Shown here piece by piece: positions 20,296 through 62,327 of a stretch of 63,632 nt of DNA. The stretch comes from Geosiphon pyriformis (taxonomy: Eukaryota > Glomeromycota > Glomeromycetes > Archaeosporales > Geosiphonaceae). The notes below the pieces were generated by a model that saw nothing but the letters and a program-made list of their open reading frames with translations, did not search any database and was not told where the DNA came from. The position numbers and the translations under genes are program-made. The stretch's first letter is position 1. Each line of letters begins with the position of its first letter. The stretch is from positions 73,266 through 136,897 of the forward strand of contig JAAOMT010000649.1 of NCBI GenBank assembly GCA_016748015.1, in the 5' to 3' direction.

Positions 20296-21631
20296 TTATT
20301 TAAACGAAGGCAAAAATTCACGACAATCTTTGAATGTGGTATTAAAATAAGGCCCAAAATGCACTGATGTTCCTCTTCCATCAGTCCCCGAGTTACAATT
20401 CTACAAAATGAGAATTAAATTAGTCCAGTGTCGCGTATATTCAAGTAATAAAACAATTTTTCTTTAACCTACCCTATTCTCTCCAGCTTTATTAAGATCA
20501 TTTGACCAGTACCCAGGGCACTGAAAAACATCATATGCCAAATTAAATTGATCAAGATTTGAATCTGGGCATTGACAATTCTTTGGTGTAATCCAATATT
20601 CCCTCTCGTGATGCCTGAAAATGTGATTACTCTGGAAATTTGACCTAAAGTTCGGAATAAAATCGTTTGAATGTGTAACACGGTAAACCTCCAATTCATG
20701 ATTAATATATTCTGCGAAAACAGTGCTTCCAATTCTTGGCTGACCAAAAGTGACTGCAATAAATTTCAATCCTGAACCAGCAACATCAGGAGAATTTAAA
20801 AGAAAAGCCTCCTTTATCTTAAGGGCTGTCAATAACGCATAAGCTATGATGTGTAAAGAAAATAAATGTATAAACTGAATTAAAGTAAAAAAATTATCTA
20901 TTGTTTTTTCTTTGAATACCTCCTCCAATTGCGTGTCCAGTGAAATAAACTTTAAAATTTGAAGTTTTAAAAGTGATCACTGCTTGCGTTATCACCATAA
21001 AAATTGATAACATTATGAAGAAGGCATCTTTATCCCATTCATTTTCCACATATCCCCCTTCAGTTTTGATATATTCAGTAGAAGCGGTGGTTCTTGCTGC
21101 CCATTCGTGAACAGGGATCTCAGGACCGTGAAAATAAAAAACTATTTTTTTGCTCTGATAATCAAGATGATATTTTGCTGATGTAAATTATAAGAGATTC
21201 AATAGCTAGCTTTAAATGATCATATGATAATATCAATAAAAATAATGGATGTTACCATATTTTTCTTCACCACCAATACGATTCTCTGGGGAAGAGTAGC
21301 AGTAAGCCATATTGGCAAAACGAGCCATTTCTGATAACATGGAAAAGGTTTCATTATTTTGCAATAGAGTTTTTGGTGGTGAATTTCCATCCTGAAAAGC
21401 TTGACCATCATTCATTGCAATTTTATCGGAATGAACCCTTCGTCTAAAATTTTGAGTGAACGCTTTTAGGTGTTGCTCAAGTTTTCCCTCAAAAAGATCT
21501 CGCTTTTCTTGCCCAAATTGGGCAAAAACTATTGACTGTCCTGTTATCAACAGCAAAGCAACAATAATCAAAGAGAAAATTTTGAGAGTAAAACTGGCAT
21601 TTCCTGATAGGTTATGCAATAGAGTCCACAT
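20296..21631 (-). CDS. Class 3 lipase-like protein 1, nucleophile Ser replaced by Ala
   Basis: Four exons with GT-AG introns: 21631-21256, 21177-20920, 20843-20473, 20400-20296, giving 369 residues. The chosen ATG (21631) places a hydrophobic segment (LKIFSLIIVALLLI) and VFA-Q near the N-terminus, a signal peptide; an upstream in-frame ATG at 21733 is less likely. The alpha/beta-hydrolase core of fungal class 3 (triacylglycerol) lipases is clear: VFYFHGPE, FTGHAIGGAYALLTAL, VTFGQPRIGS, VTHSNDFIP, HHEREYWI and VHFGPYF. The nucleophile elbow GxSxG is GHAIG, so the catalytic Ser is Ala (codon 20930-20932, residue 208). The acid Asp (in SNDF) and His (in VHFGPYF) remain. It is probably a secreted pseudoenzyme or lipid-binding protein; that role is inferred. 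Its 5' end faces the Fanzor-like remnant. Confidence 0.8.
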
Positions 21632-21825
21632 TTTATAACAGGACAAAAGGAAGCTGATATTAGTGAAACAAGATATCTTAAATTTTGACGAAAGATGTCG
21701 ACACATTTTTTTTATTTTAGGCAATATCAGCAAGATTACCTATTTATAGTCCATTTATCGCTGATACAAAAGTTTTGCCTATCAATAAAAATATTTATTT
21801 GCTGCTGTTGAAATCGCCGTCGCCA

Positions 21826-22240
21826 CCATCTTTAGCCCCAGTTTCATCGATTTTTGTCTTCACTATTGATCCTGGCATTTATAAACCCTTGATATGGTAT
21901 TCTCCTATTAAAGGAATAGGTAAAGTTGGTCAACAAGATATTGGACGTATTACTCGTATTTACATTTATATGGACAATTTGATACACAAAAAGACAATTT
22001 GGCACAATCAACCACCAGACGCAAAAAAAAGAAGGCTAAAAGACTTGATAAAGCAGTGGCATATATGTGGTGAAAAATTACACGTTTTACAAAATGAATT
22101 CACAAAAAACCATTGCATTCTTAACTTGCCAATATTATTCTTCCTTTGAAGTGTCAAATATGATAACCGATAAATGAGAAAGATTACAGGAGAAAAAAGT
22201 TCGAAGAATGCTCGGTTAGGAATATGAAACTCGTTATGTG
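21826..22240 (+). pseudogene. Fanzor/TnpB-like RNA-guided nuclease remnant
   Basis: The plus strand reads FVFTIDPGIYKPLIWYSPIK, then GIGKVGQQDIGRITRIYIYM, KKRRLKDLIKQWHICGEKLH and NEFTKNHCILNLPI. After a frame change it reads SSFEVSNMITDKxERLQEKKVRRMLG. This matches the RuvC-like core of TnpB and its eukaryotic relatives, the Fanzors: IDPG with the first catalytic Asp (21868-21870), the helical KKRRLKDLI segment, and FExSxM with the catalytic Glu (22148-22150), followed by a basic RSKTxRxML-like helix. RuvC-III and the zinc finger were not found, nor a long N-terminal part. Stops and a frame change show it is dead. The open frame here has no ATG. The family call rests on motif order from memory. 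Confidence 0.55.
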
Positions 22241-22379
22241 AAAAACTCAATCCAATTCAATATTCCAAGCATTACATATATAGAAAAGGGTTGCAGAGAC
22301 ATAGTTGTTGGTGTGCGTTATTACGATAAATCGAAGATCTTATTATGCTATTATTTATATATTGTGTCCATATTTGGTT

Positions 22380-22690
22380 GACACCTTTTAGTGTGAAATT
22401 CAAACATTACGAGATCGATGGTAAGGGTACCACAGAGAAGTTTATCACAAATCAGATGACCAATAGAAATTACCCTTATTTTGTTCAGGGATGGTAATCG
22501 AGCATTTTGCCTTAGCATTTTTATTTGTCTTATATTGAAGATGAATTTGAATTAGAACTTCCCACTATTTTATCAAACTGGACTAGCGAAAAATTTCGAA
22601 TTGTAATCTTGAGTCCAGTGTTAATTCTTCACATTGTTTGGTATTTGAATCGTTGGGGAAGACGAGTGTCTTTAATTTTTAATGTCCTCG
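22380..22690 (+). pseudogene. Unidentified coding-like stretch
   Basis: A frame with normal amino-acid composition reads KHYEIDGKGTTEKFITNQMT, then NRNYPYFVQGW, two stops, and YIEDEFELELPTILSNWTSE followed by FRIVILSPVLILHIVWYLNR. The last part is hydrophobic and could be a membrane segment. I do not recognise the family. Composition argues for a former gene rather than random DNA; there is no start or exon model. Confidence 0.3.
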
Positions 22691-27849: not shown

Positions 27850-29405
27850 ATGGAAACCGTTGAACTTAAAAGAAATCGTCCTTATGCTCATAAATGTCAA
27901 CCGACCATTAAAAACAATAAAACGAATTATTGTAACTATTGTAGAGCATGTTAGTTCATATTTTTTGAAAAGCTTTATAAAGATTTTTCAAGCGGCAACC
28001 AAGTAGTCGATGAAATAATCAAGAATCCAATTTATATTCCACCTAATAAAAAGAATAACTAATATGGGGAAGTTAATTATTACGAATGGATTCCATGGGA
28101 GCGTTTATCAAATAGCAACGAAATCGCTAGAGGAGGGTTCGGCACAATTTATAAAGCAACCTATATTGATGGATTAATTGATGAAAAAAGTATAAAACAT
28201 TATCATGATGAAATGGGATATGAAAGAAAAGGAGAAACGGAAGTAACAATAAAATTTATAAAGAACAGTGAAGAAGTGTTTAAAGAGGTAAACAATTATT
28301 ATTATTATTGTTGTTGCTATTATTATATAATTCATATTTAGCTATTATTTATTTATTTATTCATTTATTTGTATTATCTTTTAACTTAATTAATCATTTT
28401 TACCTTGTTGATAGTTACATATCCAAAGAGCTATGTTTATCAAGGGTGGATACCTGTATTATCTCTCTTTAATATATGGAATTACGCAAAACACTCAAAC
28501 ACTCGAGTATGGAATTGTGATGGAGTTTGCCAAACATGGAGATATGCGAAAATATTTATCTAGCAATTTTCATTCTACTAATTGGAGGCATAAATTACAA
28601 ACTGCGCGGGAAATAGCTAGAGGACTTGAATCTATTCATTCTTCTGGTATGGATCCTACAATTAAACGATTTAAATACTGCAATTTGCGACCTTGGCTTA
28701 TGTCAACCTAAAAACTATGAAACAAGAACAAGATCAGACTCGGAAATAGAAACAGAAACAATAGCAAAGAAAAAAATCAGAAAAAAAGCAAGAAAAAAAT
28801 CAAAATCAACAATGGCAACAGCAACGAAGAAAAATATATATGGAGTGATTCCATACATTCCACCAGAAGTTTCAAGAGGAGAAAACTTTACAATGGCTGG
28901 TGATATTTACAGTTTCGCCATGTTATTATGGGAATTAGCAACAGAAAAGCCTCCCTTTCATGATTGTTCTCATGACCACATTCTCCTGATGAATATTCTA
29001 GATGGTGCTAGACCTAAGATTACCTCTCCACTTATTCCACCTTGTATTGCCGAAATAATAGAAAAGTGTTGGGATGCTAATCCTAAAAATCGTCCTACTG
29101 CTCGAGAAGTTGAAGACAAGTTGTGGGAACATTCGTTGATTTATGAGCGGTTTACAAATAGGGAATCTACGGATGAGTCTGGAGATGAAGTGTCAATTAT
29201 AGAAGAGTCTAAAACTGAGAGTCCTGAAATAGTAGAATTTTTAGAATCAGATAAATACGTCAAAGATATGTTGAAGAAAGACTCGACAACAAATTATTTA
29301 ACAACGACAACGGTGACGCCATTGACGAAGATGAAAATTCATCCAGGAGCTATTTATACAAGTCGCGTTTTAAGTTTGCAAATGATTGATTTTTCTAAAG
29401 GTTAG
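27850..29405 (+). pseudogene. Broken TKL-type protein kinase lacking its catalytic loop
   Basis: Exon 1 (27850-28287, ATG start) carries NYCNYCRAC, EWIPWERLSN, the glycine loop IARGGFGTIYKA and VTIKFIK with the ATP-binding Lys. An intron (28288-28414, GTAAAC to GATAG) leads to exon 2: GITQNTQTLEYGIVMEFAKH, EIARGLESIHSSGM. There the HRDxHSxN catalytic loop should follow, but the sequence jumps to ILQLNDLNTAICDLGLCQP in another frame (junction 28651-28653). GVIPYIPPEV, DIYSFAMLLWELAT and CWDANPKNRPTA complete the C-lobe. Exon 1 has in-frame stops at 27952 (TAG) and 28060 (TAA). The activation segment holds a Lys/Arg-rich insert (about 28725-28830). With two stops and a frameshifting deletion, this is a pseudogene of the expanded fungal Raf/TKL-like group. 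Confidence 0.8.
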
Positions 29406-33566: not shown

Positions 33567-33696
33567 AAAACTTTCTCTCATCAATCTCCTGACTATAGCA
33601 AGAGCAAGAAGTAAATCGATAGAATAGTTTTCTCTTTCTTCTTTTTCCCTCTTTTATCTTAAAGTTATTTCTTTCAATACACCCCTTTTTGTTAAT

Positions 33697-35631
33697 ATGG
33701 AACTGACAGGCTCTTCTGTTGGTGGTTCAGGTTCTGTTTCAACGGGTTTGAGGACCCATTCTGGTGTTAAATCTAAACGTTTGGCAAGTGCTCACTCACA
33801 TGGTGCATCCTACAAGAAACCTAAAAAGTCTGTTGCTGTTGGCAGTATGATCAATACGTTTACTGGTCTTCTTAGCTTGGGAGATTTGGGTAAAGCTAGT
33901 ACCAAACCTGCAGTGTCCTGGGGTAGCAATTTTGGTAATATAGCAAGCAGTGTAAGTGGTTTTTCGGATGCAGAAAATATGACAAACTTAGTAGCTGAAG
34001 AAACAAGCTATGCAGAATCTGGTGAGGATGATGACATAGATGAAGCTACACCGAGAAAAACACGCACCAGGACGTATGCTCTAGGCAACCCAATGAAGCA
34101 ATCTCTTTTCAACAATGTGAGTGATGACAATAGTGTGTTGGAACTCCCTCCTCGTATGCTTAGTGGTTCCAATCAATTGCTGTCACTCATGCTACATGTC
34201 TCGGAAATGTGAAGTTTTGATTCAACAAAGTTTTTCACACTTGATATTGAGCTTTCTGCAGTGTCTGGCAAATTAGTTAGTGACAAGTAAAAAAATTTTC
34301 TATTGAATTGATGGTTTTGGGGGGTGTCGACTTCCTTAAAATTTCTTGGAATCATCAGATCTTCATTTACTTTTGAGAATAGCTTGATAAAGGCAAGAAA
34401 GATGGCAGTCAGTGAGAAAATTTTGGTTAATAATAATGTTAAAAAAGCAAACAGCTGTTCAGATCAGGAGGTGATCATCAAGAAGATCTCAGTAAATCTT
34501 CTCAGATTGGCAGTAGAATCAGTTTTTTTTAAATTCAGTAAGATTGTGTCCATCAAGATGCAGCTGATTAGTCTTTGGCAAAAGACCCTGGTTGAATTCA
34601 AATCATCTGAAGTAGCCAGTCTGGTTGCATCCGAGTAGTTAGTTCTCATAGAAAAGGATTCAGTGCATGTAGCTTTGATGATTGGTGATAAACAAACATG
34701 AGTATTAAGAGATCAGCATTGGGCATTGTTTTATACTCTTCCAGTTGGCACCACTGCCCATGATCTTTCTAATTTGTTAAATTCTTATGGTGGGAAAACC
34801 AGCATAGTTGGCCGTAATCCAGTTATGTATGTTCGAGATAGGTGTGCTATTATTTGTTTTGCTGATAAAGCTTCCAAGTTGGCTGCAATTAGTTTAGTTC
34901 CGATCTTTAAGGGTGTGAGTTTGCATTGGGCTGGTCTTTCTTTGGCCTGTTGTGCTACATATAAACATTTTGGTCATGTTTCAAATATGTGCTCTATGGG
35001 TGGAAATTCTGGGAGATATGGTAGACGTGTGATTACTCCTCAGAATCAGACCCATTTGGTTGACATTTATAAAAAAAGGCAAGCACCAATCACTCATCCA
35101 GTTTCTTTTGGTGGTAAAACTTGGGCTCAGGTAGTTGGCAGGTTTTTTTCTCATGTGGTTTTCTTTGTTGTTTCTGGTGCGAAGTCATTTTTAGATGTCA
35201 AAAGTCTTTCAATGGATTTTAATTCTTTCATGGTCACAGGTCTGAATGATCACTTGGTGTTCTTGGAACACTCTTTAGAACTCTTGGCCGACCAGGTTTC
35301 TGGCATCTTGAAAAGATTGAGCTCTGCTGAATTGGTGCCTTTGTTCCTTGCTTCACTAACTTCCCCTCTTGTTGTCTTTGCTTCTTTGGATTTGAGTGCA
35401 AACTCAAACATGGTGTTAGATGCTCCACAGGTTTTTTCTTCTCCTTCTATCACAGTCATTGACAATGCAGCTTCTAATTTAGGTTCTAGTAGTTCAAAAA
35501 TCCTGACCACCAAAGTTGGTGGTTTGGAATCAAAAATGATGGCATTAGATGTAACAGTTGGTACAGTTTTGGCTAGATTGGATTTTTTGTGCTCTGAGTT
35601 GGGTTTGTTGTCTGTCTTTTCATCTCAATGA
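33697..35631 (+). pseudogene. LINE ORF1 (Gag-like, RNA-binding), five internal stops
   Basis: The ATG at 33697 starts a 644-codon frame that keeps register to the TGA at 35629. Internal stops lie at 34210, 34288, 34309, 34636 and 34699. The N-terminal part is Ser/Gly-rich and basic, followed by an acidic EDDDIDE segment. The middle part has RRM-like stretches (VIIKKISVNLLRL with KIVSIKMQL; HDLSNLLNSYGGKT with CAIICF). A CCHC knuckle follows, where the second Cys is Tyr (34960-34962): C-AT-Y-KHFG-H-VSNM-C. A Ser-rich C-terminus ends in a coiled-coil-like segment. ORF1 proteins of LINEs coat the element RNA. Here only a 171-residue N-terminal piece could be made without readthrough. Confidence 0.8.
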
Positions 35632-38600
35632 GTGGTTTGGTTTGGAAAATTGCTACTTGCAATGTTAGGGGCATAAACAATCCTGCAAAACAGGATGACA
35701 TTATTTGTTGACACAACGACATAAACAATTTGATTTCAATTTTTACAGAAACAAAGTTAAAAGAAAGGGTTCGTCCCTAGATCATCAACAAATTTGATGA
35801 TATAAGAGTGTTTACCTCTGGCTTGGATTCTAGTTATCTGGGTGCTGGTGTTGTGATCGTCATAAATTCTTCTTTGACAAGACATGTGTGCAAGATTTCT
35901 AAGGTGCCTGGTCAGCTCTTGTCTATTAAATTGCTGTTCAAAAATAAACTTTCAGTATCAATTTTGGGGCTCTATGCAGGCGCTTCTTTGGTGGTTTGGT
36001 TCTTTCAGGCTGGTAAGGTTAACTCTCTCATCATTAAGGCTGTTAATGAATCTTCTTTTGTCGTTCTTGGGGGTGATTTTAATGAAGATGGTTTGCGTAA
36101 AAGTGTGAGTTTTAGGAAGTGCCTTGATTTGAGACTAATCAATTCTCTGTTGAGTAGTCCAGTTGTGAAAAATCCTACTTGAGAAAATTCAAAGGGTGTG
36201 AAAAAGACAATTAATTATGTGTTTGTTTCTTCAAGTCTGGTCAGTACAATCATATATCGTAATGTTTTGGAGGTTGGCAAACATTATGATACAGATTACC
36301 AGACTGTCTCTGTGTCTATAGGCTTGGGTGGGCTTTTGGATGTGCAGCTGAACTTTCTTTGCAAACAGGCAAATAAGGATCATTGGAAGTTCGATTTTAA
36401 GAATGTTGATGAGATTAGATAGAACAATTTTAAAGGTGCCACATTAGCCAATGCTACAATGTTCTCAGATGAGTTTGCCACCTCTGTAAAGTTTTCGGAC
36501 TTGGATGCAATATGGAACATTGTTCACAAGATAATGATTCTCTTAGCTAGTGAAGTGTTTAAGAGGAAGTGGTTCAAAAGCTTTGATTATGTTTTCACCA
36601 AGGAATCTTTGAGATTTTACAAATTAAAGCTTTTGGTTTCCAAAATTGTCAAGGTCTCATGTGAGGAATGTGTAGCAAATTTTGAGTCTCTTATGGAACA
36701 TTGGGTTTCTTTGGACAATGATAGGGCTTTATTTGTGCAAGGTGTGATGGACTTTGGTGCTAACACTAATGGTGTTTATTCTGCTTTTTTTAGTACTAAG
36801 AGGTCTTATCGCACATCCAAGCTTACTGAATCATTGAGAGCTAAGAAAGCAAATATCAGGTCTGCTATAGATAAGAGGATGGAGAGTTTTGAAATGGATA
36901 AAGGTCACATGATCAGAAGTGTGCTGGAACAATCTTTTTGCAAGGTGGTTTTGGATCATTTGGTCGTGGGTAATGAGTTGGTTTTTGAGCCTAATTTGGT
37001 GAAATTTAAAGTGGATAATATTATAGAAGGATGGACCAGGAAGCGTGTAGTGGTCGATAATGTTTCTGATACTTGGTCTCGTCAGTACCAACTTTTGGAC
37101 TACATTTTTGATAAGGTCTTTCCTGAAGTGATGTGTGTGATTGATTTTGATAAGTTGCATCATGTGGTCTCTAATCTGCCTATTGGCAAAGCCACTGGTC
37201 TTTCAGGTATCTTTAATGACCTATGGAAACATTGTGATCAGTCAGTTTTGGATTTGCTTCTGGTCCTGTTAAATTCTTGTCTGTCTTGTGAATTGGTACC
37301 TGGTCCTTGGAAAGAGGCTTGGGTTTCAATGATTCCCAAGCCTTATAAGTGGGAGGGTGTTCTCATGAATACTTGTCCTATTGCTTTGATTGAAACAGCT
37401 TGCAAAATTCTCTTCAAGATTCTTTCAGATAGAATCTCATTTGCTTGCAGCTCTCATGATGTTCTACATGGTAACAATTTTTCAGTCTTAAAGGATATGA
37501 TAACTCAGTCATCTATTTTTGCTATTGGTTCAGTTATTGAAGACTCTCTGGAGAAAAACTGAGAGCTTTGGTTGGTTTTACAGAACATGTAAAAAGCTTA
37601 TGATTTGGTTGGCTAGAAGCACCTCAAGAGGAGTTTGGTTAGGATTAAGATGTGCAGCAAATTTATTCGGTTTTTTGGCAGTATTCATAAGAATTGCACC
37701 AACTGTGTGATGACAGATTTTGGTTTAACAGAAGACTATCATGTGCATGATAGCCTGAACCAAGAAGAAGTTTTTTTCCCCCTTTTGTGGCATATTTTTT
37801 ATAATCCTCTGTTGTGTAAAGTTAAGTGTCAGGGAAGTGTGTATGAGTATAGATTGAATTCTCATTTTGTTTCCAAAAGTGGTCATATCAAATCTCAGGC
37901 TGGGCTCTCTTCTTTTTTTGCTGCTGGTGCTTTTGTTAATGATATAATCTGAGTTGGTAGCAGTCAAAATGCTACTCAGCATATTCTCAATGTAGCTAGT
38001 AAATTTTTTTAAATTAATAACATTTCAATTAATAATGACAAAACAGTGGTCATTCCCATCAATAGCAGAGTCAGTGTTCTTTTTCTCTCCATTAGTGGCT
38101 CACCAATTTCCATCACCAAAAAGGGTGAATCTCATCAGTACTTGGGTATTTTTTTCTTGATTGAGGGTCTTTTAAAGCCTAGTTTGGCTAAGGCGAACTC
38201 AGATGTTTGTTTTTTCACCAATCTGGTCCTGAGAAAGGCAGTTTTGGATAAGCAATTTTTGTATCTGGTGTCAGCAGTTTTCTATTCTATAATTAGCTAT
38301 AGAATGCAGTTTTGCTTTGTTTCTGTTGGTATGTGCACCAAATGGGATGCTCTGATTCGTAAAGGCTTGAAACTTAAATCTGGTCTCCCACTGAATTTTT
38401 CTAGTAATACAATTCACCATCCTTCTTTTTATGGTTTGAAGTCCTTTTCACAGTCTCAGTCAGAATGTAAGTTTGCTTTGCTTGTTAGTTTTGCAAACTC
38501 TAGTGGGATTTTGGGGCATTTGTTCAGTCACAGATTTCATGACTTACAAGTTTTGTGTTGGCAACCAATCCATCTATTGATCTCTCCTACTCGTATTCGT

Positions 38601-40306
38601 GTCAGTGTTTCTAATAATTTCTTGGCTGGTGTGATTTCTATCTTTCTTGACTGCAGGCTGTCTTTGGGTGGTTCTTTGGCCAGTACTTTTTGGTTTCGTG
38701 GTGGGGTTTCTATGTCTGTTGTTCTTGGCAATTCTTTGTTTTTCAAGTTTTTGCCATCCCTTTGATGTTATGGCATTACTTTTGTGGACCAGCTTCGGGA
38801 TCATTGTGGTGATGTCTTTAGCTGGCTTATCTTTAAGTGGTGGAAGAGACTAGATTCTTGTGGTCTAGTCTCTGAGTGGTTCGAATGTTTAGTCAAGTTC
38901 CTTGTAACTTCCTGTTCTTCTCCCTCAGTCTTGGTTGGTGTTGGTCCTGTTGACATTTGTGGTTCTGATAATTTTATGTCTGTATGTAATCATCTTTCTT
39001 GGATTGGTGTTGATAGTTTGTCTGTATATACAAATGAGTCATTGAAAAATTTGGGCATAATTGGTTGTAAGGCTGGGGCTGCTGTCTTTTTTGAGGACAT
39101 TAACTTGAGTTTGGGTATTAGTGTTTGGAGTTTGGTGTCATCTACTTTGGCAGAATTACAGGCTATAACGTTGGCTCTAGAGTGCATACCTGTGGCTTGT
39201 TCTGTTTGTCTGTTTTCAGATAGTCAGGCGGCCTTGGATGCTTGTATGTCAGAGGTTAACTTGGGATATCCTGACTTTCACAATCAGTGTTGGGTTGAGC
39301 ACCAGCATATTAGGAATGTTATTCACAGTAAAAATTTAAGAGTTAGCTGGCACAAGGTTAAGAATCATTTTGGTGTGTTGGAGAATGATCGAGCTGATAG
39401 CATTGCTGATGCTGCAACTCTCTCTGATTGGTTTTTTTCTACTTATGTTGATGAACATTTTTTGTTGGCAGATGATAGTATTGTCTTTGGTAATTCTAGA
39501 CATTTTGTTCGAGACATTTTTCATGCTGTTTGTTGAGTGCATTAGGAGGTCGGTTCCAGTTCTGGGTTTCTACCTGGAAATTTGCACTTAGATATTGATT
39601 GGCCTGGTTCTTCCAGAATTTGGCATCCTGATTCGCATATGGCAACAGATTTCACTAGCAGGTGCACTGCTAACACTCGTACATACCTTATGAAGACTTT
39701 GCACCATCAGCTTCCTATGGTTGTTTGAAAGTGCGTTTATGATAGATGTTATCCTAGTGTTCTGTGTCTGTATTGTGATGAGGTAGAGGTGTCTGATCAT
39801 GTATTTTCTTGTGTGATTGATAATTCAGCTCATCATCAGGTTTTGGAATCCTGTATGTCTTCTTGGAAAATGCTTTTTGGTCTTTTTCTTTCTTCTTTAA
39901 GTGTATTGCAGCTGCTGTCAATCTGTGCTTCAGATTTCCTGGTTTTCTTGGCTCTTTACAAGAGTTTTGTTTTCAAAGAATGGTTTCAGGAGGCTGTTTT
40001 TGTCTTCCACGATCCCAAAGTTACTGGCATTAAGATTGCTAATTTTGTGTGCTTTTTTTGTGTCGCTTTTAGAAATGATATTTGGTTGGTCCATGCCAAG
40101 TATCGCGCATATATGAAAAAAATGGCCTGATCCTGGTGGATGGCTTGATTCTCATCTCGGTTTCTGGTTTAGTCTCGAGGTTTTCAGATGGTGTGGTTAA
40201 ATTGCTTGGTATTGCTGAAGCTTTTGGCATCTGTTTTGGCTTTCGCAAATCTTGTTTTTTTTTTTCAGGTATTGATGACCCGGTTTCTGTTAATATAATT
40301 GTGTAG
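35628..40306 (+). pseudogene. LINE ORF2 (endonuclease, reverse transcriptase, RNase H), inactivated
   Basis: The ATG (35628-35630) overlaps the ORF1 stop as ATGA. The endonuclease shows IATCNVRGINN, FTETKL and VVLGGDFNEDG; its final catalytic His is Tyr (36297-36299, TDYQ). The RT shows LPIGKATGLSGI, WVSMIPKP, GNNFSVLKD, then motif A with Asp changed to Asn (37584-37586, LQNMxKAYD) and FxDD as FVND (37938-37943). RNase H shows VYTNES (first Asp to Asn, 39033-39035), STLAELQAITLALE, FSDSQAALD and NDRADSIAD. Thirteen in-frame stops lie between 35709 and 39728. A one-base loss at about 40115-40122 moves the last ~60 codons to another frame, ending at 40304-40306. This is a typical apurinic-endonuclease LINE Pol with an RNase H domain. 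All three enzymes are dead. Confidence 0.85.
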
Positions 40307-40440
40307 TGTTGTTCTGACTGGTTCGAGTGGCTGGTCACATGTAGAAAATGCATGATTTATACTTAGTTTAGATCATTTCTTTGATGTATAGTTTTAAGTA
40401 GTGTTTGGACTTCACTCGTTAAATATTAATAATAAAAAAA

Positions 40441-43371: not shown

Positions 43372-44926
43372 TTAGATGCTAAAATCTCTACCAATAGGAT
43401 AATAATTTTCGCAATTTCCAAATGTCACTCCAAAATAAGGGCCGAAATGAGCTCTTGTTCCTTTACCATCAGTGCCTAAATTGCATCCCTAAAAAAAAGT
43501 CAAATAAATGAGCTATTTTTATCTTTACTTAATAGCACTCTAAAATAATAAATTAAAATAGCTTTCTATATAAAAGCCTTTTTTTAATAAAAATTAAACA
43601 TACTGGATTTTCGCCATATTTTTGTTTATCCTGTTGTGAAAATCCCGGACATTGATAGACAATGCCATAACCTTCACGAACAAGTCTGGAAGCATCAGGA
43701 TCTTCGCAATCACAATTCATGTCTGAAATCCAATACTCAGTCCCAGGGTGCATATATAATTTACCATCGGTTGATTTTTTTGGAAAATGTGGGAAATAGT
43801 CATTAGTATGTGTGATCCTATGGACTTTGAGATTAGGAATTCGGTGGAATCGGGCTGCATACTGAGAATCTCCTGAACGTGGAGAGCCAAAAGTTATAAC
43901 AGTAATATAAACATTTTCATTAAATCCTGGAAGCTTTGTGACAAAAAGGCCGGTTAATTGGGCATAAACTAATATTATGATTAAAATATAAAGTTAAGAC
44001 CACAGTTGTGAAATCACTCTCTTTGTGTTAAAATGAGTGAATAAAAATTTTTAATAATTCCTTACATCCACCAATACCATGTCCAATTAAAAGAACGTTA
44101 ATTAGTTTATTCCCTTCTCTACCAGTTTTTATTATCTTCATAGCTTTTTCTATTCTGCCATTTAAAAATGCGAAACAGTCTTCTGGCCATGATTTCCACC
44201 AATTTGAATCAATTTTGAATATATTTGCTTCAGGATGCAATTTTCCTAGCTTAAACTTGGTATTTTCCATTTGGCTTTTACTCATTTCTGGCCCTAATTA
44301 TTAAGAAAATATGAAATGTTTTTAAAACTAAAGACTTTTCAAATATAAAAAATAAAATCTTTTGTTTAAAAGCCCCCAAGCATTTTAGTAACTTTCCTCT
44401 AATAATTCCAATAATCTTTCGCATATCAATCTCAGCATAAACTCTACCTAATCAAATCATTTTAAATAAGAAATTAATAAAAGATTTGAAAGAAAGTTAT
44501 CTTTTACTTGAAAATCATCTTACCGATGAAGTTTTTACCAATTATATCATCCTTCTCTCTAATACAATAGACCTCATTTGCCATATGCGCCATTTGTTTG
44601 AAATGTCGAAGGGTCCTGTACTCTTTTACCAGTCTTTTAGGCAGTGGCACTTTTCTTGGCTTCTCGAATCCACCACCACTACTTATTAAGAGTAGTTTTC
44701 GTTGATTATCATGTTGAAAGATTATTTCTCGACGCTTAAAGTTTGGCTTCACTTGAAAAAATTCATCATAATATTTTGTTACATTTGTTGTTTTTGACAG
44801 TGGAGCAAGTTTTTTAGCTAATAAGTTTTCTCTTTGATTTTTGAAAGATGAAAAGCAAATGATTGGAAGAGAAAAGAAAAGAAATATCAATACATTTTGT
44901 AGCATGGTTTTTTTCAAAAAGACCAA
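43372..44926 (-). CDS. Class 3 lipase-like protein 2, nucleophile Ser replaced by Gly
   Basis: Five exons: 44926-44524, 44447-44397, 44293-44066, 43968-43604, 43488-43372; 387 residues if joined. The first ATG (44926) or the one seven codons on gives a signal peptide (LIFLFFSLPIICFSS). Core motifs: IRGPEMSK, VLLIGHGIGGFYAQLTGL, VITFGSPRSGD, ITHTNDYFPHF, PGTEYWI, RAHFGPYFGVTFGNC. The elbow is GHGIG, so Ser is Gly (44076-44078, residue 224). Asp and His are kept. Exon order and the 365-base fourth exon match the paralogue at 56.8 kb. One junction is irregular: homology needs splicing after 44397, where the donor is GAAAGT, not GTAAGT. Either a rare GA-AG intron is used or the gene is newly disabled. 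A secreted, probably non-catalytic hydrolase-fold protein; the role is unknown. Confidence 0.7.
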
Positions 44927-46890: not shown

Positions 46891-46899
46891 GTTAGTTTT

Positions 46900-47330: not shown

Positions 47331-48008
47331 TGAATTAATGGGGTCATGTTCAAGCATTTTTGACAGCATTTATAGGTCCCGTGTATGCCATAATCTTTCA
47401 TTTGTTAATTTCATTTAGCTGTGTACGGATGGGTATCATTTTTTTACTTAACAATATTATAATATTGGAGAGTTGTAAAAAGTAGACAATTGTCAACTTT
47501 ACTTGTCAAAAGAAGTGAGAAAACTTGATATCTTGATTTTTTAAGTGGTTATGCAAAATCGGGCATTACTTTTTGGGACCTTAGCATTGAAATTTAAATT
47601 GCGAATATTAACTGTGACGTATAGATAATCATTTTTATCACACTTCGATTATTTATAATTAATTTTTATCATCATACCAAATTAAATATTCATAACATTT
47701 TGCAAATTCAATTTTTCTTATTAACTTTGTCACATTTACATAAATTACACTCTAAATTTCATTATCAAAGAGATATTTAGTTTTAAAGCGGACCTGAACG
47801 ATTCTTTTGCACAACCAGTTTTTATATTTAAACTTGAATGAAATTTGGTGATATAATACCTATAAAGAAAAAATTCCTTTCCCTCCCAAAGTGCAAAGAC
47901 TTTTTGATATATGATGATCGATCTGTATCACGGAAATCAGATGCAAACGTATAATTGATGCAAATGATAAGCAACATGGGTTTTCAGATCGATTCACTAC
48001 CTTTCAAA
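47331..48008. other. Promoter region of the phosphatase gene
   Basis: Composition becomes more balanced towards 48000. No other gene seen. An in-frame ATG at 47958 precedes the preferred start at 48009. Confidence 0.45.
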
Positions 48009-50387
48009 ATGAGTGAATACGCGAACAACTTTGTCGAATCGGAACAAAATGAAGCGAAAGCTGAAAACTCCAAAGAAGCTGCAAATAAGTTGTTTCAGGG
48101 TTCGTTGGTCTTAAGGTCTTTTTGTGGATTAATTATGGCCTCAAGGAGAAAAATGATAAAACCGTATCCACTTGGAACTTATTAGCGAAAAAGTATGAAG
48201 CTGCAATTGAGAAATATACCGAGGCGATCAAATTTAACCCGAAAATGGCAGCATATTATGCCAACCGTTCTCTAGCTTACATGAAGACGGAAGCTTATGG
48301 TTATGCCGTTGCTGACGCGAACGCAGCTATAGAGGTGGAACCCTCTTACGTGAAGGTAGGGAAGCTAGCAATATATATTGAATAGAATATTTATGATCGA
48401 AGCTCGATCAGATTCTAAACGGAAGAACTCATAAGTTGATCTTTGTAATCATTTCATATATTAGGCATACTATCGACGAGCAGCTGCTAATATGGCAATG
48501 TGTAATTTTAAAGACGCACTTCGAGATTTTCGGATAGTGAGTTTCTTTTGAAACCTTCATCCAACTTCCAATATTAAAAACTCTCACTAACTTGGATACT
48601 TATTGAGGTGTCAAAAAAAGTACCTACAGATAAAGAGGCCAAAGCAAGGATGATCGAATGTGAAAGGATTGTGAGAAAAATAGAATTTGAAAAAGCAATA
48701 CAGGTATTTGCATAAGAAAATGTATGTGCGTATATAATGTTTTTCAATTCCTTTTTTTAATTATTTAAATCCGTTGTCACGATAGGTAGATGCATCAAAA
48801 AAGTGCCTCGTTGATTCTTTAGATATTTCCGCAATGAGTGAGTAGAAAACTTGCAATAACCAACAAAAAAAGATATATTGCTAAATTTTCCCAATGCATT
48901 TATGAAAGATATTGAAGCATCATATGTGGGACCCAGAATGACAGATGCAGGGATCTCGGAAGATTTTATTAAAGCAATGATGGAAGCTTTTAAAAACCAA
49001 AAACTAATTCACAGAGTATATGCATATAAGGTACGAACTTTTTACAATGTCATCTGGGTAGGGTTCACAACATGATTTAATTATCTAACCAATCAAACTA
49101 TTTCAAATTGATTTATTCCAAAAGATCATACAAGCTATAAGAAAGATGATGTTACGAGAATCTTCTTTGGTAGATGTTACAATACCACAGGACAAAACGT
49201 TAACAGTATGTGGAGATGTTCATGGTAGGGTTCTGTATTTGGAGTTCACAAAGATATCAACTTAATATCTTTAGAAGAATCACATGATTAATATCTAACT
49301 TTTGTTGAAATTCTTATCATAGGACAATACTATGATTTTATTCATATATTTGAAATGAATGGACTGCCTTCTGAAAAGAACATGTACTTGTTTAATGGCG
49401 ATTTTGTAGATAGAGGCTCTTTCAGCGTCGAGGTTATTTTGACCTTGTTTGCCTATAAATGGCTGTACCCGAACGCGATCTTTCTAACTCGTGGCAATCA
49501 CGAAACAGATGACATGAATAAGGTGTATGGTTTTGAGGGTGAAGTAAAGGCAAAATATTCCGATACTATGTTCACTCTATTTGCAGAAACTTTTGCTGCT
49601 TTACCGCTGGCCCACTTAGTTGGGCAAAAAATATTGGTTACACATGGAGGACTATTTAGTCGCGATGATGTTACTCTTGACGAAATCAGAAAAATCGATC
49701 GTTTTCAAAGAAAACCTGAATCACAAGGAATTATGTGCGAACTTCTTTGGTCCGGTACGTTGAACAGCGGTTTTTCCGACTCTATTAACATCCAAGTTCA
49801 ATATCTTTTTCATGAATTTCTAGATCCACAAGAAGCACTTGGACGCTCCCCAAGTAAACGAGGTGTTGGTATTCAATTTGGACCTGATATCACTGAAAAT
49901 TTTTTGAAACGAAACAATTTAGGTAAGTCTCGATCAATAATTTAATGATTCCATTGCTGATTTATATGATTCTGATCACTTTCTATATCTTCAAAGATCT
50001 ATTAATAAGGAGTCACGAGGTCAAAGAAAATGGATATTTGATAGAGCATAACGGAAAATGTATAACAGTATTTTCAGCGCCTAACTATTGGTATGTTTTC
50101 GGGTTCATCAACTCGTTTGGATTAATGCACTGCTAACCCGATGATTTGAAATGCCTAGTGACACGATTGGAAACAAGGGGGCATACATAAACATCTCGTC
50201 AGATCTCCAGTTAACATACAAGACATTTGAGGCTGTGGTAAGTTGAATTGTTTATTATTACATTTCAGCTCAACTACCAATAATACCTTTTCCCGATAAT
50301 ATTTCTCACTGGGTTCATATATTTTAGTCTCACCCTAATATACGACCTATGGCGTATGCAAATCAATTTGGTGGTCTTTTTTCTTAA
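48009..50387 (+). CDS. PPT1: Serine/threonine protein phosphatase 5 (TPR plus PPP catalytic domain)
   Basis: Twelve exons, all GT-AG: 48009-48099, 48186-48355, 48465-48536, 48608-48703, 48786-48837, 48909-49030, 49125-49224, 49323-49754, 49824-49922, 49997-50090, 50159-50237, 50328-50387. They join in frame to 488 residues, close to the ~500 of PP5. The start [10 protein letters not shown] fits the short acidic N-terminus. The TPR repeats (about 20-125) include [38 protein letters not shown] and [11 protein letters not shown]; in PP5 they bind Hsp90 and restrain the active site. The catalytic domain has all metal and phosphate motifs: GDVHGQ, GDFVDRG, RGNHE, a THGG loop, [10 protein letters not shown] and FSAPNYCD. 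The C-terminus [14 protein letters not shown] matches the family. It dephosphorylates Ser/Thr on chaperone clients. All catalytic residues are kept, so it is probably functional. Confidence 0.92.
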
Positions 50388-52160: not shown

Positions 52161-53685
52161 CTATATTAAAAGCTTTTCATTTTCACAATATCCCATCATA
52201 TATCCGAAATATGGACCAAGACGTTGTACAAGGGGTTTTAAAGAATTTCGTACTGCATCCTGATTACATAACTTTAAAAACACGATATATTAATGAATGA
52301 ATATCGTAAATAATGATTAAATAATCAAATTACCTTCGGCTCATGCATTAACTTTGAAAAATAGTTTCCAAAGCAAACGTAAACTTCATCTGGGATATCA
52401 CAATTGCAAGAAGGATTGATCCAATACTCGTTGGTATGATGAAAAAAGTTGGGAAGTTTCGGGAGCTGTGTTATGTAATCATCAGAATAGGTCACTCGAA
52501 ATACTCTTGAATTTCCAAACTGCTTATTATCAATAAAGTTTTGATCGATTATAGTTTGTGATTCTGATCTCAATTCTGAATTTGATTCATCTAATATTTT
52601 CTTTTCAAGTAAAGAATCGACATATTCAGCGAAGAGTAAGTTTCCGATTCGCGGAGCGCCATAAGTATATACTTCAATTGTGAATGACCTTTTACGCAAA
52701 AAGCTTTCAATCTTTTTATAAATTCGTTTAAAATCCATTGCTCCAAATAAAGCCATGACTGAAAAAATAATTTTTTAATATAATTTTTTATTAAATTCAA
52801 AAAATTAAGGGATTGAAGTTTACCTCAATTTACTCACCACCACTCAAATAATGCCCAACAAAACAAATATCTGTTATTGCCATATTTCCCTTCAATACAT
52901 TAATCATTCGAGCTCTGAAAAGCAATCTTACGTTTAGATAATCTTCAAATAACTTCTTCTCCACCTTCGCATTTCTGACGTGTGGATACCCCATCTGAAA
53001 CTTAAAAAGTTTCCGCCAATGAATTCCTACGCGGCGAAAATAAACAATCAAAGTTGTTTCTTGGGTTTCAAAGCCGACTTCGTGACCGTGAATAATCAAA
53101 CATATATATAATCGGTAATTGATGAGGGTAACCAATAATTGGCTAAAGATTAAACTTTTAACGGTATTATATATTAAAATATAATTTACCAAATATTTGA
53201 TCATCTAATTTTTGCGCAGCATCTTTTAAGCAATATGCCTTATTGGCGTATTCTGCATAGTATTTTATTTTTATAAACTGTGGGCTGTCTGGTGGTAATA
53301 ATACTTTTTTCTGAGTCCTATTTTCATTTCGACCTGAGAAATTAATCCTTCGTAAATTTGAATAGGTATATGATTGTTTTGATACCCTTGAATTTTTGAA
53401 AATTGAATAATTTTGATCCGCTTCGATTGAAATATTTGTTAAATTAGAGATATGGATATTTGACCCAATAATTGAGGATTTCTTTAGATCTTTTTCTAAA
53501 CCAAAATGAATAGTATAATTACTCAAAGTGTAAATATATATTGTAAAAAATGGCAAGAAAATAAGAATGAAGAAAGAAAGTAAAAATTTTATTTGAAGAG
53601 GACAAAAAAAAATTTGAAATATATTTTTAGAAAATTTTGATGAAAAATTGAGAAATGAGAATTTATTATAATCATTTGGGAACAT
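52161..53685 (-). CDS. Class 3 lipase-like protein 3, nucleophile Ser to Tyr and catalytic His to Arg
   Basis: Four exons: 53685-53190, 53077-52838, 52758-52334, 52259-52161; 419 residues, GT-AG introns. A strong hydrophobic segment near residues 34-55 (LLSFFILIFLPFFTIYIY) follows a basic N-terminus, so this may be a signal anchor with the domain outside the cytosol. Core motifs: TLIVYFRR, CFVGHYLSGVMALFGAM, VYTYGAPRIGN, VTYSDDYITQL, HHTNEYWINPSCNCD, LGPYFGYMMGYC. The elbow is GHYLS, so Ser is Tyr (52848-52850, residue 242). The His expected two residues before GPYF is Arg (QRLGPYF). Only the Asp remains. Exon 2 (240 bases) has the same length as in the copy at 57.2 kb. The start of the last exon is less certain (possible 1-base shift). 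Probably non-catalytic. Confidence 0.72.
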
Positions 53686-55619: not shown

Positions 55620-55674
<55 letters not shown>

Positions 55675-56794: not shown

Positions 56795-58072
56795 ATTTTT
56801 CGATATCAGATCATTTCTATAATAATTTTATTTATCTTGGAATTATTAAAAATCTGGTCTACATCTCAAAAAATTAACAATTTTTATGCAATCTTACAAA
56901 CTTCTTGTGAGACAAAGATAACACTTACCCACCCTAATGTAACAGAAAAAATGGAAGCAAGGAGCTTGGACATAGCAGAATTCAGAATGAGAATAGACGA
57001 AAAAAATTTGAAGGTGGTAGCTGAAAATCTCACGAAAATACTAATCGATTCGAAGGATCCGATTTTGAAAAAATTAGCGGAATACGCATACTATGCAAAT
57101 TTAACTTATAAAATGTACGGGAAAGCTGGAAAGATCGCACCAGGAGCACTGGGTTCGAAAACTTGGTTTTTGATTTCTTTAATATTCCGATTAAATATTA
57201 ATTTTTTGTTTTAAAAATAAAATAAAGCAACCATAAATCAAGTCGAAAAAAGATTGATTATCACCTCTCGAAGAAAAGATAGCAGATGGCTTTTCTGACA
57301 TAAAAAATATATATCTTATAGAAAAGTCCCAGAGGCCTTTGTCGAAAAAAGTTTGTTTCAGCCTTACCTAGAATGTAAAGATAAATTTTTTTCACTTGTT
57401 CAAAAAAGTTTGTCAAAAAATCCTGAAATTGAACAAATTGGAATAATTGGGCATTCTTTGGGTGGTGGTAAGTAAAAAGAATTCAATCCTACAAAAACTT
57501 GAAATCCCTAATTTTTTTATATTTTTTTTTAAACACAGCATTGGCAATATTTGCTGCTCTTGACTTAAAAAAGTTTCGAACAGAAAGCACATTTCTTAAA
57601 GGTCGGCAAATTGATATTGAAGTCGTTACTTTCGGCGCACCACGTATTGGGGATCGAATATTTGCTCATTACGTATAAAGCGTATTAAGGAAACCTGGTA
57701 TGACAACAGAACTAGTCCTATATCGTGTAACACTGATGAACGATATTATCCTACAAAATCCATCCAAACTTTCCTATCCTTATGGATTTTTTCACCATAT
57801 GACTGAATATTGGATCACAATCGATTGTGATTGTCCTAAATCTTCCCTGGTTTATAAATGTCTTGGTAAGATCGAAAAGAACAGGCTGATTAGTGAACCA
57901 CAGGTATGAGCCTTTAAATTTGAGAGTTGTGCTTTTTTATTATTGAGTGATCATTGTTATTCACCCCACTGACGTTTCCCTTTAGGGTTGCAATTTTGCT
58001 AATAACCGAAAAACAAGTCGAATTTTCGGGCCATATTTTGGACAGATGATGGTTCCTCACATTAAAACCTGA
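56795..58072 (+). pseudogene. Class 3 lipase-like copy 4, keeps GHSLGG but carries two stops
   Basis: Exons about 56795-57152, 57228-57467, 57539-57903, 57986-58072 keep register. The first ATG (56951) lies after a hydrophobic segment (ISIIILFILELL) that should be the signal peptide, so the original start seems lost. Motifs: IGIIGHSLGGALAIFAALDL with an intact nucleophile (TCT 57455-57457), VVTFGAPRIGD, VTLMNDIIL, HHMTEYWI, IFGPYFG. In-frame stops: TGA 57296-57298 in exon 2 and TAA 57676-57678 in exon 3, both explicable by C-to-T changes. The catalytic His before GPYF is Ile. The donor at 57153 (GTTCGA) is weak. Exon lengths (240 and 365) match the other copies. A dead gene on the strand opposite to copy 3. 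Confidence 0.8.
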
Positions 58073-58783: not shown

Positions 58784-58796
58784 TTTTATTTTTGGG

Positions 58797-59189: not shown

Positions 59190-59485
59190 TGAATTACCAC
59201 CACATTATTAAAATAATATCTTTACATTGTTTTATACTATAGTATTACTTTATTACTTTGATTAAAACTGATATTATATGTATTTGAGTTTAGACATTCA
59301 TTCAATAATAAACTTTTATTTTTGAGAAAGCTATGTAGAAAAAGTTGAGTTCCCTCTAAAATTCATAAAGATTGCAAGAATAAAAATTTTGAATCTTTGC
59401 TTTCGAATTTGAAATTTGGAAGCATAATAAAGAAAGGTATGGATGGTAAAACTAATAGTTTTGTTCAACTAAATTTATTTTTTAG

Positions 59486-59685
59486 TGATTGAGACTTCTT
59501 TTACAGTTACTTCTGACATGAAAAATAAAGCTATACAAAAAATTACCTTTACAGTTCTACCAAGACCACACGAAATCATATTGTTAGAAAGGGCAAAAGC
59601 AACAGATTTTATTAATAAAATTTTAATATGCAATTCTTTTACTCGCAACGTTACGACATATAATTTTATCCATTTTCAACAATAA
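59486..59685 (+). other. Possible exon, unidentified
   Basis: After a good acceptor (tttatttttttag) a frame runs ETSFTVTSDMKNKAIQKITF, TVLPRPHEIILLERAKATDF to a TAA at 59683-59685. It has protein-like composition and no ATG of its own. It could be the last exon of a gene related to the one at 58797. No family known. Confidence 0.3.
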
Positions 59686-59689
59686 ATTG

Positions 59690-61680
59690 CCCCAAATAAT
59701 CCATATTTTGTGGCATTCATTTTTTTAATAGGATTTAGATCTTGGCAAAAACAATAGCATGTATTTAAGAATGAAATAATTTTTCAAATATTTTATCTTC
59801 CGTGTAAAATGAATTAAATCAATGAATCAAAATGAAAATTTTAAATATAAAAATATCACTTACAAAGGTGTTAATATTTGTTGGAAATATCGTGTGTTTC
59901 ATAATAACAAGGATCAAATTTCGTGGAAAACATAAGACTTGTAAACAAGAATGGAATTTCAGTTCGGTATATTTATATACAGTAAGTTAATTAATATGTT
60001 ACCTAAATTCAAAGGTCGAGTTCCTTCAAGCGAGGTGATTTGATCTTTTTTAATTTTTTGTACATTTATCTATATTACTATTAAAATTACTTATTGGATT
60101 TTTTTTACATTCTGTGTCTTTTTATTAGCACAACCAGAATTTTGAGTAACTTGTTGCGAATTTCTATTTCATTCTAAAAAATCAGATTGAATAAGCATAA
60201 AATATAATGCAAAAACATAAATACTCAAAAAAGGTTTTTGATTTCCCTTGTATCTTCATTGATTAATTCCCCCTCACTATTTTCTGAATAATTAGATTTA
60301 TCATGTTCATAGTCATTCCTTAAATTGCTTTTTTGCTTCTTTAATTGAGGAATTTCTTAATATCTTCCGAAGCCATTCAATTTTGTCTAAATTATGAAAT
60401 AAAAAAATAAAGTTGGACTTAGTTTTTTCAAACCCTACAGAGCGTAATTTTTAAATAATATACTCCTTGGCATTAAATAACAATTAAAGGCTACCAACTG
60501 CTCTTTTGAGATTATTAAAAAAATTAATTATCTACTTGGTCATATAGAAAGCTTAACTTGCCTCCTTTTGTTCAATGATTATTTTTCCCATAATTCTTCA
60601 TACTTCACCTGTTAAATAGTTCGTAAAAGCTTATCAATATAGAAATAAAAGCAATATTGATCGCAAATAGTGAAGAAACGCGCTAAATGCATGTAAAAAC
60701 TTACCAGGGGTTTTTCAATCGTTACTTGGAAAAATGAAATTACTAAATACCCTCGGATTCATGTAAAAACTTATCACAAGACTCCTTTCCCCAATTATAT
60801 TAAAATAAAATTATCTATATCCTTACAACATCAGTTAAATAAGATCCAATCTTTTTGCCTCTTTCAGAAAAATTGCCCAGTCTAGGTGTTATCAAGAACA
60901 TCCCATTTAATATTAAATGATAGCAAATTGATGACAGTAACGCGATTCAGAATCAAAAAATTGGTACACAACCTAAGATTTAATTCATAGTCTTTTAAAT
61001 ATGCTATTAGAACCATGAAATACAAAACTTAATTAATATTTGTTTTTCCTATTTATATTTTAACTTTTGTTTGAAGATTGCTATTCATCAGTAGACTGAA
61101 AAAATGAGAAAAATGTTTAAGATGTAAATTTTTGAGATAAATGTCCGCAAGTATTACAGATTGACTTGTAACAAATAGTTTCGAAAATTGGTCAGTACAA
61201 AAGCAACTCGAAGAAAAGATTTAACAGTAATATGTATTAGTGATAGAGCTATATATTTTGTTCTTTGTGTCTACATTTTATTATTATTGGTACAGGTATG
61301 CTCTTATAACTTCATCTTGGGTGGTTTTTCTTATGTACAATTCCTCTTTCCGTTTACTAGAGCTAACTTGTTTCGATTTGTTATAAGAAAATAGTAGTCT
61401 GCGATACAGAAAAAAGGTGAAGATAATTAGCAAAGATAAATTTCAAATTGTTATTACATGAAAAAAATTTAATATGACCTATCGATTCCTTACCACCAAT
61501 ACTATTAAAAAGTCTGAAAATCTTATTAGTCATTTTCTTTGAAAGTTGGTCTTAGTGAGCTTATGCAGAAATTTGTCCTTAGTTTAGCTCTCGTATTAAA
61601 TGCATAGTCTAATAATAGCAACAAATCAGATCATGGCTAATTTTCTGATTAAAAACTAACTGATCTTTGTCGATTGTAGA
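59690..61680. other. Intergenic DNA with gene fragments
   Basis: Contains the inverted copy at 60710-60812. On the minus strand near 60390-60240 an ATTTAG acceptor precedes a coding-like, Asn/Glu/Lys-rich stretch with one stop (EIPQLKKQKSNLRNDYEHDK, SENSEGELINEDTREI); this could be the end of that inverted paralogue. The 68-codon frame at 61188-61394 has no ATG at its start and is not accepted. Confidence 0.35.
60710..60812 (-). pseudogene. Inverted diverged copy of part of the gene at 58797
   Basis: On the minus strand 'taatataattggggaaagg' and 'gtttttacatgaatccga' occur in the same order and spacing as at 58883-58935 on the plus strand. The peptide is ERSLVISFYMNPRVFSN against ERSLGPSFYMNPKVFRA. 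A GTAAGT donor-like site follows at the homologous place. The rest diverges. Confidence 0.6.
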
Positions 61681-62327
61681 AACGTCAGACTGTGAAATAA
61701 TAGAAGGATAACTGACTTCTTAACTTTTTATTGGGGCTATTTGCTAAGGATTTATCTGCAGAGGTAAGTTTATTAGCATACTTTTGTGGCAGGAGAATAA
61801 TTGTACTAGATCATTAAAAATATTTAAATTTCCCACAGCCCTGGCATTATTTTCAGCACTGCTAGTATTAAAATCAGATTTCAAGCCCAAAACTATTCAG
61901 ATTCTTACCTATGGTCAACCACGTGTGGGAAATAAAGGATTCGCTCAATATGTTAATCAAGAAATTCCAAACTTGTATCGTGTGATAAATGGCAAAGATA
62001 CTGTGGCGAATAGTCCCAGTAGATGTTCAACAGGATGGGTACATCATGAAAAAGAATATTGGATTGATCCTAATTCGAAAAAAACGTATAGTTGTGCTGG
62101 GGCGTTTGACGGCAGTGGAAGTTTTGTTGATGAGAGTCAAGTATCTCGCATCATATATACTGAATATACAATTCTAAATGGCCCAATGCGAATTTCTTAA
62201 TTTACTTTCTTCTTTTATTTAGAAATGCTTAAATGCTCCAGGTCAATATAATTCAGCATTGAATGCTGGTCCATATTTCTCTATCACAATGGGGAAAACT
62301 TGTCTGCCACCGGGAGGAAGGACGTGA
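61681..62327 (+). pseudogene. Class 3 lipase-like copy 5, C-terminal half only
   Basis: Exons 61839-62140 and 62223-62327 (GT-AG, last exon 105 bases as in copy 1) encode ALALFSALLVLKSDF, LTYGQPRVGNKGFAQYVNQ, YRVINGKDTVANS, WVHHEKEYWI and LNAGPYFS with a TGA stop. Upstream, an exon ending at 61763 before a GTAAGT donor should hold the nucleophile elbow, but reads FIGAIC, a stop, then GFICR instead of GHSLGG. No N-terminal half was found before it. The His before GPYF is Asn. A decayed copy of the same family as the four others in this window. Confidence 0.7.

Follow-up and report, generated by a model that had tools for sequence, protein, structure and literature searches.

We analysed a 63,632-nucleotide stretch of the genome of Geosiphon pyriformis, a glomeromycotan fungus that lives with Nostoc, and refer to this whole stretch as the window (assembly GCA_016748015.1, contig JAAOMT010000649.1, positions 73,266 to 136,897 of the forward strand; all coordinates below are counted from its first letter). 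The window holds five gene copies related to the class 3 lipases (Lipase_3, PF01764), at ~20.3-21.6k, 43.4-44.9k and 52.2-53.7k on the minus strand and at 57-58.1k and 61.8-62.3k on the plus strand, numbered here as copies 1 to 5. Copies 1, 2 and 3 have full-length predicted reading frames, and none carries the elbow serine expected of a catalytically competent Lipase_3 protein, its place being taken by Ala, Gly and Tyr, respectively. Judged by sequence, these three copies belong, as intact genes, to a very large family that is clustered in part in tandem and in which a serine-less elbow is the norm in G. pyriformis.

Lipase_3-like copies in the window

A sequence-only reading of the window had proposed five class 3 lipase-like copies, and all five were located. 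PF01764 matched exon 3 of copies 1, 2, 3 and 5 above the 22-bit Pfam cut-off, and copy 4, which was outside the Pfam comparison, was recognized by the match of its exon 3 to that of copy 3. Exon 2 of copy 1 scored 14.5 bits against PF01764, below the cut-off, and the second exons of copies 2 and 3 gave no match; a second Pfam domain above the cut-off was not found in any of the copies searched. The exon structure previously described as shared was largely borne out, with a second exon of 240/258 bases, a third of 365-425 bases and a terminal exon of ~100 bases encoding GPYF, except that the second unit of copy 2 is split in two.

Copy 1 (20296-21631, minus strand) is predicted to be a complete four-exon gene, a model supported by the Lipase_3 match of exon 3 and by sequence matches to lipases in the PDB. 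Its exons (21256-21631, 20920-21177, 20473-20843 and 20296-20400; 376, 258, 371 and 105 bases) are joined by GT-AG introns and would encode 369 amino acids from the Met chosen, beginning with a hydrophobic N-terminal stretch. The elbow is GHAIGG, with the nucleophile-position codon GCA (Ala) read directly at 20930-20932.

Copy 2 (43372-44905, minus strand), for which the relatives L009-L015 also provide evidence, is a predicted five-exon gene with a signal-peptide-like N-terminus. Its exons (44524-44905, 44397-44447, 44066-44293, 43604-43968 and 43372-43488; 382, 51, 228, 365 and 117 bases) would encode 380 amino acids, and the elbow is GHGIGG, with the codon GGT (Gly) read directly at 44076-44078. 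The 51-base exon (44397-44447) is followed by a non-GT donor, GAAAGT, giving a GA-AG intron. Because the same letters stand in the relatives L009, L011-L015 and L017 (L010 has N there), this donor is, on sequence comparison, a feature of the clade and no fresh lesion of copy 2. A model in which the 51-base exon is skipped stays in frame (363 amino acids); we preferred inclusion, the exon being conserved in the readable relatives.

Copy 3 (52161-53685, minus strand) is likewise predicted to be a complete four-exon gene, with a Lipase_3 match in exon 3 and a hydrophobic, anchor-like N-terminus. Its exons (53190-53685, 52838-53077, 52334-52758 and 52161-52259; 496, 240, 425 and 99 bases) are joined by GT-AG introns and would encode 419 amino acids; the acceptor of the 240-base exon is weak, having no pyrimidine tract, and was picked for its frame, as an alternative acceptor leads to stops. 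The elbow is GHYLSG, with the codon TAT (Tyr) read directly at 52848-52850. The three elbows were thus as first described (GHAIG, GHGIG and GHYLS), in frames predicted to splice to full length.

The sole copy in the window with a Ser elbow, copy 4 (56951-58072, plus strand, outer limits approximate), is itself broken: it reads GHSLGGG, with the Ser codon TCT at 57455-57457, and has an in-frame TAA in exon 3 at 57676-57678. Copy 5 (61839-62327, plus strand, exon limits approximate) appears from alignment to L059 and L108 to be a 5'-truncated recent duplicate made up of exons 3 and 4 only; clear homology to those relatives begins ~20 bases before exon 3, so that it has no elbow exon, and the elbow of the relatives is GHNSGG.

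Copies 1, 2 and 3 all end in the GPYF exon, and alignment places Asp and His at the expected positions in each. The His lies four residues before EYW in all three; it had been reported as kept in copies 1 and 2, and copy 3 keeps it as well (HHTNEYW). Markov-shuffled versions of the exon-3 sequence were stop-free in just 1 of 3100 cases, and the open frames of exon 3 are therefore no product of chance. Copies 1-3 are assigned by their PF01764 matches to Lipase_3 and, by descent, to the alpha/beta hydrolase fold.

The nucleophile position across the genome

The genome (124.7 Mb in 406 contigs) was searched with PF01764 and three exon-3 queries, which gave 127-163 matches each (the best 150 candidates were scored), many of them in tandem clusters such as that at C252:254-310 kb. 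We examined 185 loci, consisting of the five window copies, 20 close relatives and 160 of 195 further regions, the other 35 listed regions lying outside the survey. Automatic splice models were missing for 27 loci, of which 12 were read by eye (3 with Ser, 9 not) and 15 were unreadable; three models that read through an intron, all with Gly, were left out of the tallies and the tree. In the 155 usable models the nucleophile position held Gly in 108, Ser in 24, Ala in 8, Asn in 5, Arg and Asp in 3 each, Phe in 2, and Tyr and Cys in one each. When the read-through models and the loci read by eye are included, 143 of 170 readable elbows have no Ser, most reading GHG[IVL]GG. The rate at which Ser is retained depends on sampling (22/100 where loci were ranked by Pfam score versus 1/36 where the ranking was by similarity to copy 1). 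A count of exact DNA matches to the motif GHx[ILVM]GGG, which is independent of this sampling, gave 225 Gly and 39 Ser genome-wide, although these matches are not all confirmed family members (among 20 fetched loci, L200 resembles another kind of lipase). With a VTN fourth codon there were 286 matches, 213 with Gly and 21 (16+5) with Ser; with a TTR leucine there were 12 with Gly, 18 with Ser and one further match with Cys, other residues being outside this last count. Controls with the reversed pattern gave 0 every time. Among viral Lipase_3 relatives, the elbow was GHSLGG in 79 of 79 readable cases. The 80 loci of this control ranked best among 208 confirmed relatives and came from the matches listed for two peptide patterns, of which one left the nucleophile free to be G, S or A.

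The age of the serine loss was addressed with a FastTree phylogeny of 198 columns, from which the nucleophile column was left out, rooted on six GHSLGG copies, and with a three-state likelihood model of ancestral residues over 91 bootstrap trees. All 91 bootstrap trees reconstructed the common ancestor of copies 1 and 2 as Gly, each with P of 0.97 or more, its clade comprising 24 to 130 tips depending on the tree. By this reconstruction a single old loss of Ser was passed down to both copies, and the Ala of copy 1 (GCA, common to L003) would therefore be a step from Gly. The earlier proposal of three independent losses at the locus was not upheld, as only the Tyr of copy 3 is a separate substitution, in another part of the tree. 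A sister relationship between copy 3 and the Ser-bearing copy 4 was considered (support 0.90 on the best tree), but their ancestor holds just these two in 28 of 91 bootstraps; the pairing is not robust, and the Tyr may have come from Ser, from Gly or from some other residue.

The loss of Ser may also have been reversed. Some Ser-bearing copies lie within Ser-less groups, L174 with TCA among neighbours with GCA, and L121, L094 and L128 among Gly copies. In the KLTKxQW subfamily (L181, L183-L194; G000 C96, C114, C227, C78, C120, C162), which is outside the tree, the near-twins L190/L191 and L188/L189 differ by one base in the elbow codon, AGT (Ser) versus GGT (Gly). Both the embedded copies and the near-twins suggest returns to Ser, a direction that we infer.

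The other two residues of the catalytic triad are conserved. Both Asp and His occur in 73/73 members of a clade that contains copies 1 and 2, with 0 parsimony steps, compared with 31 for the median column, and the nucleophile column shows 8 steps (rank 26 of 174). Throughout the Ser-less sequences Asp and His are each found in 129 of 131, in keeping with the initial observation that the Asp is kept. Such conservation would be expected if these proteins were divergent enzymes in which Asp-His acts as general base or acid without Ser, water or the substrate supplying the nucleophile, with lyase-, isomerase- or slow hydrolase-like activity, and the fairly conserved Gly at the nucleophile position of the clade of copies 1 and 2 is also on the side of this explanation. 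The oxyanion hole speaks against it. In Lipase_3 lipases the oxyanion hole has a Ser or Thr that follows the (R)G in the first strand, and this residue is Thr in 6/6 readable classical copies; in the 131 Ser-less sequences this position holds Thr in 2, Ser in 6 and Pro in 42 (7 are unreadable there), and in 16 other Ser-bearing copies Thr in 0 and Ser in 1. Copies 1 and 2 have Pro, and copy 3 is without a canonical RGT. In addition, sub-lineages tolerate Ala, Asn, Arg, Asp, Phe and Tyr in the elbow, and no invariant Ser that could replace the nucleophile was found in the 73-tip clade, so that a true nucleophile elsewhere, which would have undercut the sequence-only reading, found no backing there. 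Two other candidates were rejected: the invariant Cys residues of the clade come later in the sequence than the His and resemble disulphide partners, and the invariant Thr residues (next to FGxPR and in RxTxxxD) also occur in the Ser-bearing L046 and L083. We regard Ser-free catalysis as unlikely and rank it second, after lipid binding or recognition.

Selection on the family

Selection was measured as the ratio of nonsynonymous to synonymous substitution rates (dN/dS) in 65 pairs with >55% identity, which are not independent and three of which include the Ser-bearing L174. The ratios ranged from 0.14 to 1.7, most being 0.3-0.7 and two exceeding 1; a ratio of 1 was rejected downward by 38 pairs, with four more at the limit. 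Copy 1 gave 0.28-0.36 against L002, L003 and L004, each pair rejecting 1, and copy 2 gave 0.33-0.71 in five listed pairs, one of which clearly rejects 1. Purifying selection on the family is clear, copy 3 itself being outside the measurement. At the level of sequence, the family has the marks of a putative pseudoenzyme family, namely an essential residue lost and a fold kept by selection.

These data bear on neutral birth and death, in which surplus lipase copies decay and the loss of Ser is one symptom. Broken copies do exist (copy 4 of the window, L001 and L017), copy 5 is truncated, and dN/dS = 1 was not clearly rejected in 27 of the 65 close pairs. However, the loss of Ser is older than the radiation of the clade of copies 1 and 2, in which Asp and His are invariant, and an in-frame stop occurred in only 1 of 150 exon-3 matches (a set that favours intact copies), while 38 of 65 non-independent pairs and 3/3 copy 1 pairs reject neutrality in the direction of constraint. 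We consider neutral decay very improbable. The sequence-only reading had likewise argued against simple decay, and had suggested mapping the elbow residue on a family tree and measuring dN/dS on Ser-less branches; the tree and the pairwise ratios agree with it, the former in placing the loss of Ser early in the clade of copies 1 and 2, and the latter in the ratios below 1 of copies 1 and 2 and of the close pairs.

Diversifying selection was examined by comparing site models M2a and M1a, using our own implementation, which has no gene-conversion term. With untrimmed columns, M2a was favoured in five subclades (p = 1.2e-4, 2.0e-5, 3.4e-5, 0.025 and 0.011), with omega of the selected class at 2.9-5.5, and in the clade of copy 1 (p = 2.4e-4, untrimmed columns only). 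After trimming, which removed positions close to gaps or to the exon junction, the signal persisted in clade A, which includes copy 2 (twice the log-likelihood difference, 2dlnL, 18.2, p = 1e-4), in clades B (8.0, p = 0.018) and D (7.0, p = 0.030), and in clade C when the Ser-bearing L174 was included (9.3, p <0.05). The maxima in 12 null simulations each were 9.2 for A, 2.4 for C and 3.1 for B, and we read the diversifying signal as suggestive.

A proposed lipid-binding or recognition role on a lipase scaffold

The explanation that we favour, with a probability of roughly 0.55, is that copies 1-3 are secreted or surface proteins that bind or recognize lipids on a lipase scaffold and do not hydrolyse them. 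Probably, loss of the Ser nucleophile came at an early stage of the family's expansion, mainly by Ser to Gly (GHG[IV]GG), after which the family would have been kept by selection. Its core, Asp and His would have stayed fixed, with fast change at other positions, many of which lie from the first strand to the elbow. The acyl pocket would stay and, without Ser, a ligand could be held uncleaved, the His-Asp pair holding its polar end. Such proteins may have a role in the uptake or recognition of partner lipids in a lineage without fatty acid synthase; the genes for that enzyme were undetected when Glomeromycota genomes were recently compared (PMC11134847). Hydropathy indicates a hydrophobic N-terminal stretch in copies 1-3 and, of 20 close relatives, in 14 (the other six are without a usable exon-1 frame), and the proteins of the family are probably secreted or membrane-anchored. 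We infer the lipid ligand, the absence of hydrolysis, the secretion and the part played with partner lipids alike.

Several results weigh against this explanation. The elbow is unreadable at 15 of the 185 loci, and some relatives are broken, as noted above. Deep nodes of the tree have low support (0.14 on the best tree for the node joining copies 1 and 2). Over the whole tree the nucleophile column requires 31 changes, compared with a minimum of 40 and a mean of 45 for shuffled labels (n = 200); the position clusters by descent, yet it is labile outside the clade of copies 1 and 2. Pairwise dN/dS is high, with 0.3-0.7 common, and constraint is partial; for copy 3 against L019 and L178 synonymous sites are saturated and the ratio is uninformative. 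The diversifying signal appears fragile: it was lost on trimming in clade E (2dlnL 3.4, p = 0.18) and in clade C without L174 (1.7, p = 0.43), one of the 12 null simulations of the copy 2 clade reached 9.2, and gene conversion may contribute to it. Finally, an invariant Asp-His pair exceeds the needs of simple lipid binding and would fit non-Ser catalysis too.

The site-model results relate most directly to a third explanation, in which these are rapidly diversifying effector-, receptor- or self-recognition-like proteins for which the lipase fold is a mere scaffold and lipid binding incidental. M2a was favoured in 6/6 subclades before trimming, and both the tandem clusters and the signal- or anchor-like N-termini are as this explanation would have them. 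The loss of the signal from clades E and C (the latter without L174) on trimming counts against it, as does a possible contribution of gene conversion, and a pure scaffold needs no strictly invariant active-site Asp and His. It is, in our judgement, slightly less probable than Ser-free catalysis.

The favoured role in lipid binding or recognition can be set beside known systems. The best PDB match of copy 1 by sequence was 1gt6, which reads GHA at the nucleophile; we take this entry to be an inactive Thermomyces lanuginosus lipase, engineered from Ser to Ala and with oleate bound, in which case such a protein can still hold a fatty acid. The entries 1dt3 and 1tgl are presumably the lipases of T. 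lanuginosus and Rhizomucor. All three resemble the family in the region matched and in the order of elbow, Asp and His-x3-EYW. Copy 1 shares its Ala with 1gt6, but the change in Geosiphon is natural, old and mostly to Gly; 1dt3 reads GHS, unlike the Geosiphon family, in which the Thr or Ser after the strand's G has mostly been lost too. By sequence, copy 1 also matched EDS1 (E 3e-4) and, weakly, PAD4. EDS1, PAD4 and SAG101 are plant immune proteins related to Lipase_3 that act in signalling rather than hydrolysis. They differ in their large C-terminal EP domain, no counterpart of which was found in copies 1-3, each ending at most ~90 residues past the catalytic-position His, and in that the Geosiphon family is huge, secreted-looking and mostly Ser-to-Gly. 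Dipteran yolk proteins and neuroligin-type pseudo-hydrolases are other cases of alpha/beta-hydrolase folds reused without catalysis, drawn from lipase and esterase families other than Lipase_3; to our knowledge they comprise few genes, with no lineage-wide tandem expansion. Inactive lipase-fold proteins are thus known in other groups, and what is unusual here is the scale of the Ser-to-Gly Lipase_3 family. A literature search, largely outside subscription content, found no description of such a family in Glomeromycotina.

Other genes lie among or near the lipase-like copies. The product of a nearby gene at 16665-17522 (plus strand) carries Ser/Pro-rich repeats of SPSGSES type followed by an ML lipid-recognition domain (PF02221, E 3e-5). 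A gene for a tyrosine-kinase-like protein kinase (PF07714) lies at 28063-29405 (plus strand). Between copies 1 and 2, at 34702-39536 (plus strand), is an element like a long interspersed nuclear element with an RNase H domain, the Pfam match covering the RNase H part only. At 47955-49945 (plus strand) is a gene with TPR and calcineurin-like phosphoesterase domains, which we take to resemble a PP5-type phosphatase.

More broadly, and only tentatively since we hold the full proposal to be doubtful, Geosiphon may have hundreds of such "dyad" lipase-fold proteins (Ser-to-Gly with fixed Asp-His), serving as diversified secreted or surface lipid receptors or carriers for lipid capture or recognition at the intracellular interface with Nostoc, with occasional single-base returns to Ser towards an enzyme-like elbow.

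The results have implications for how this family is read in other fungi. Entomophthora muscae, also an early-diverging fungus with a very large Lipase_3 expansion, has 348 Lipase_3 genes that were counted as host-tissue-degrading enzymes, the accessible text of the report not discussing elbow residues (PMC10515909). Because most Geosiphon copies are without the nucleophile, such counts can mislead when taken as digestive capacity, and the E. muscae elbows merit the same residue check. In Geosiphon, the natural Ser/Gly near-twins, one elbow-codon base apart, offer a clean comparison, and a family in which Asp and His were kept and Ser became Gly represents an unusually large natural experiment in the repurposing of an enzyme fold. 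Since the fungus hosts a cyanobacterium and belongs to a lineage without detected fatty acid synthase genes (PMC11134847), a role of the family in lipid capture or partner recognition would be directly testable.

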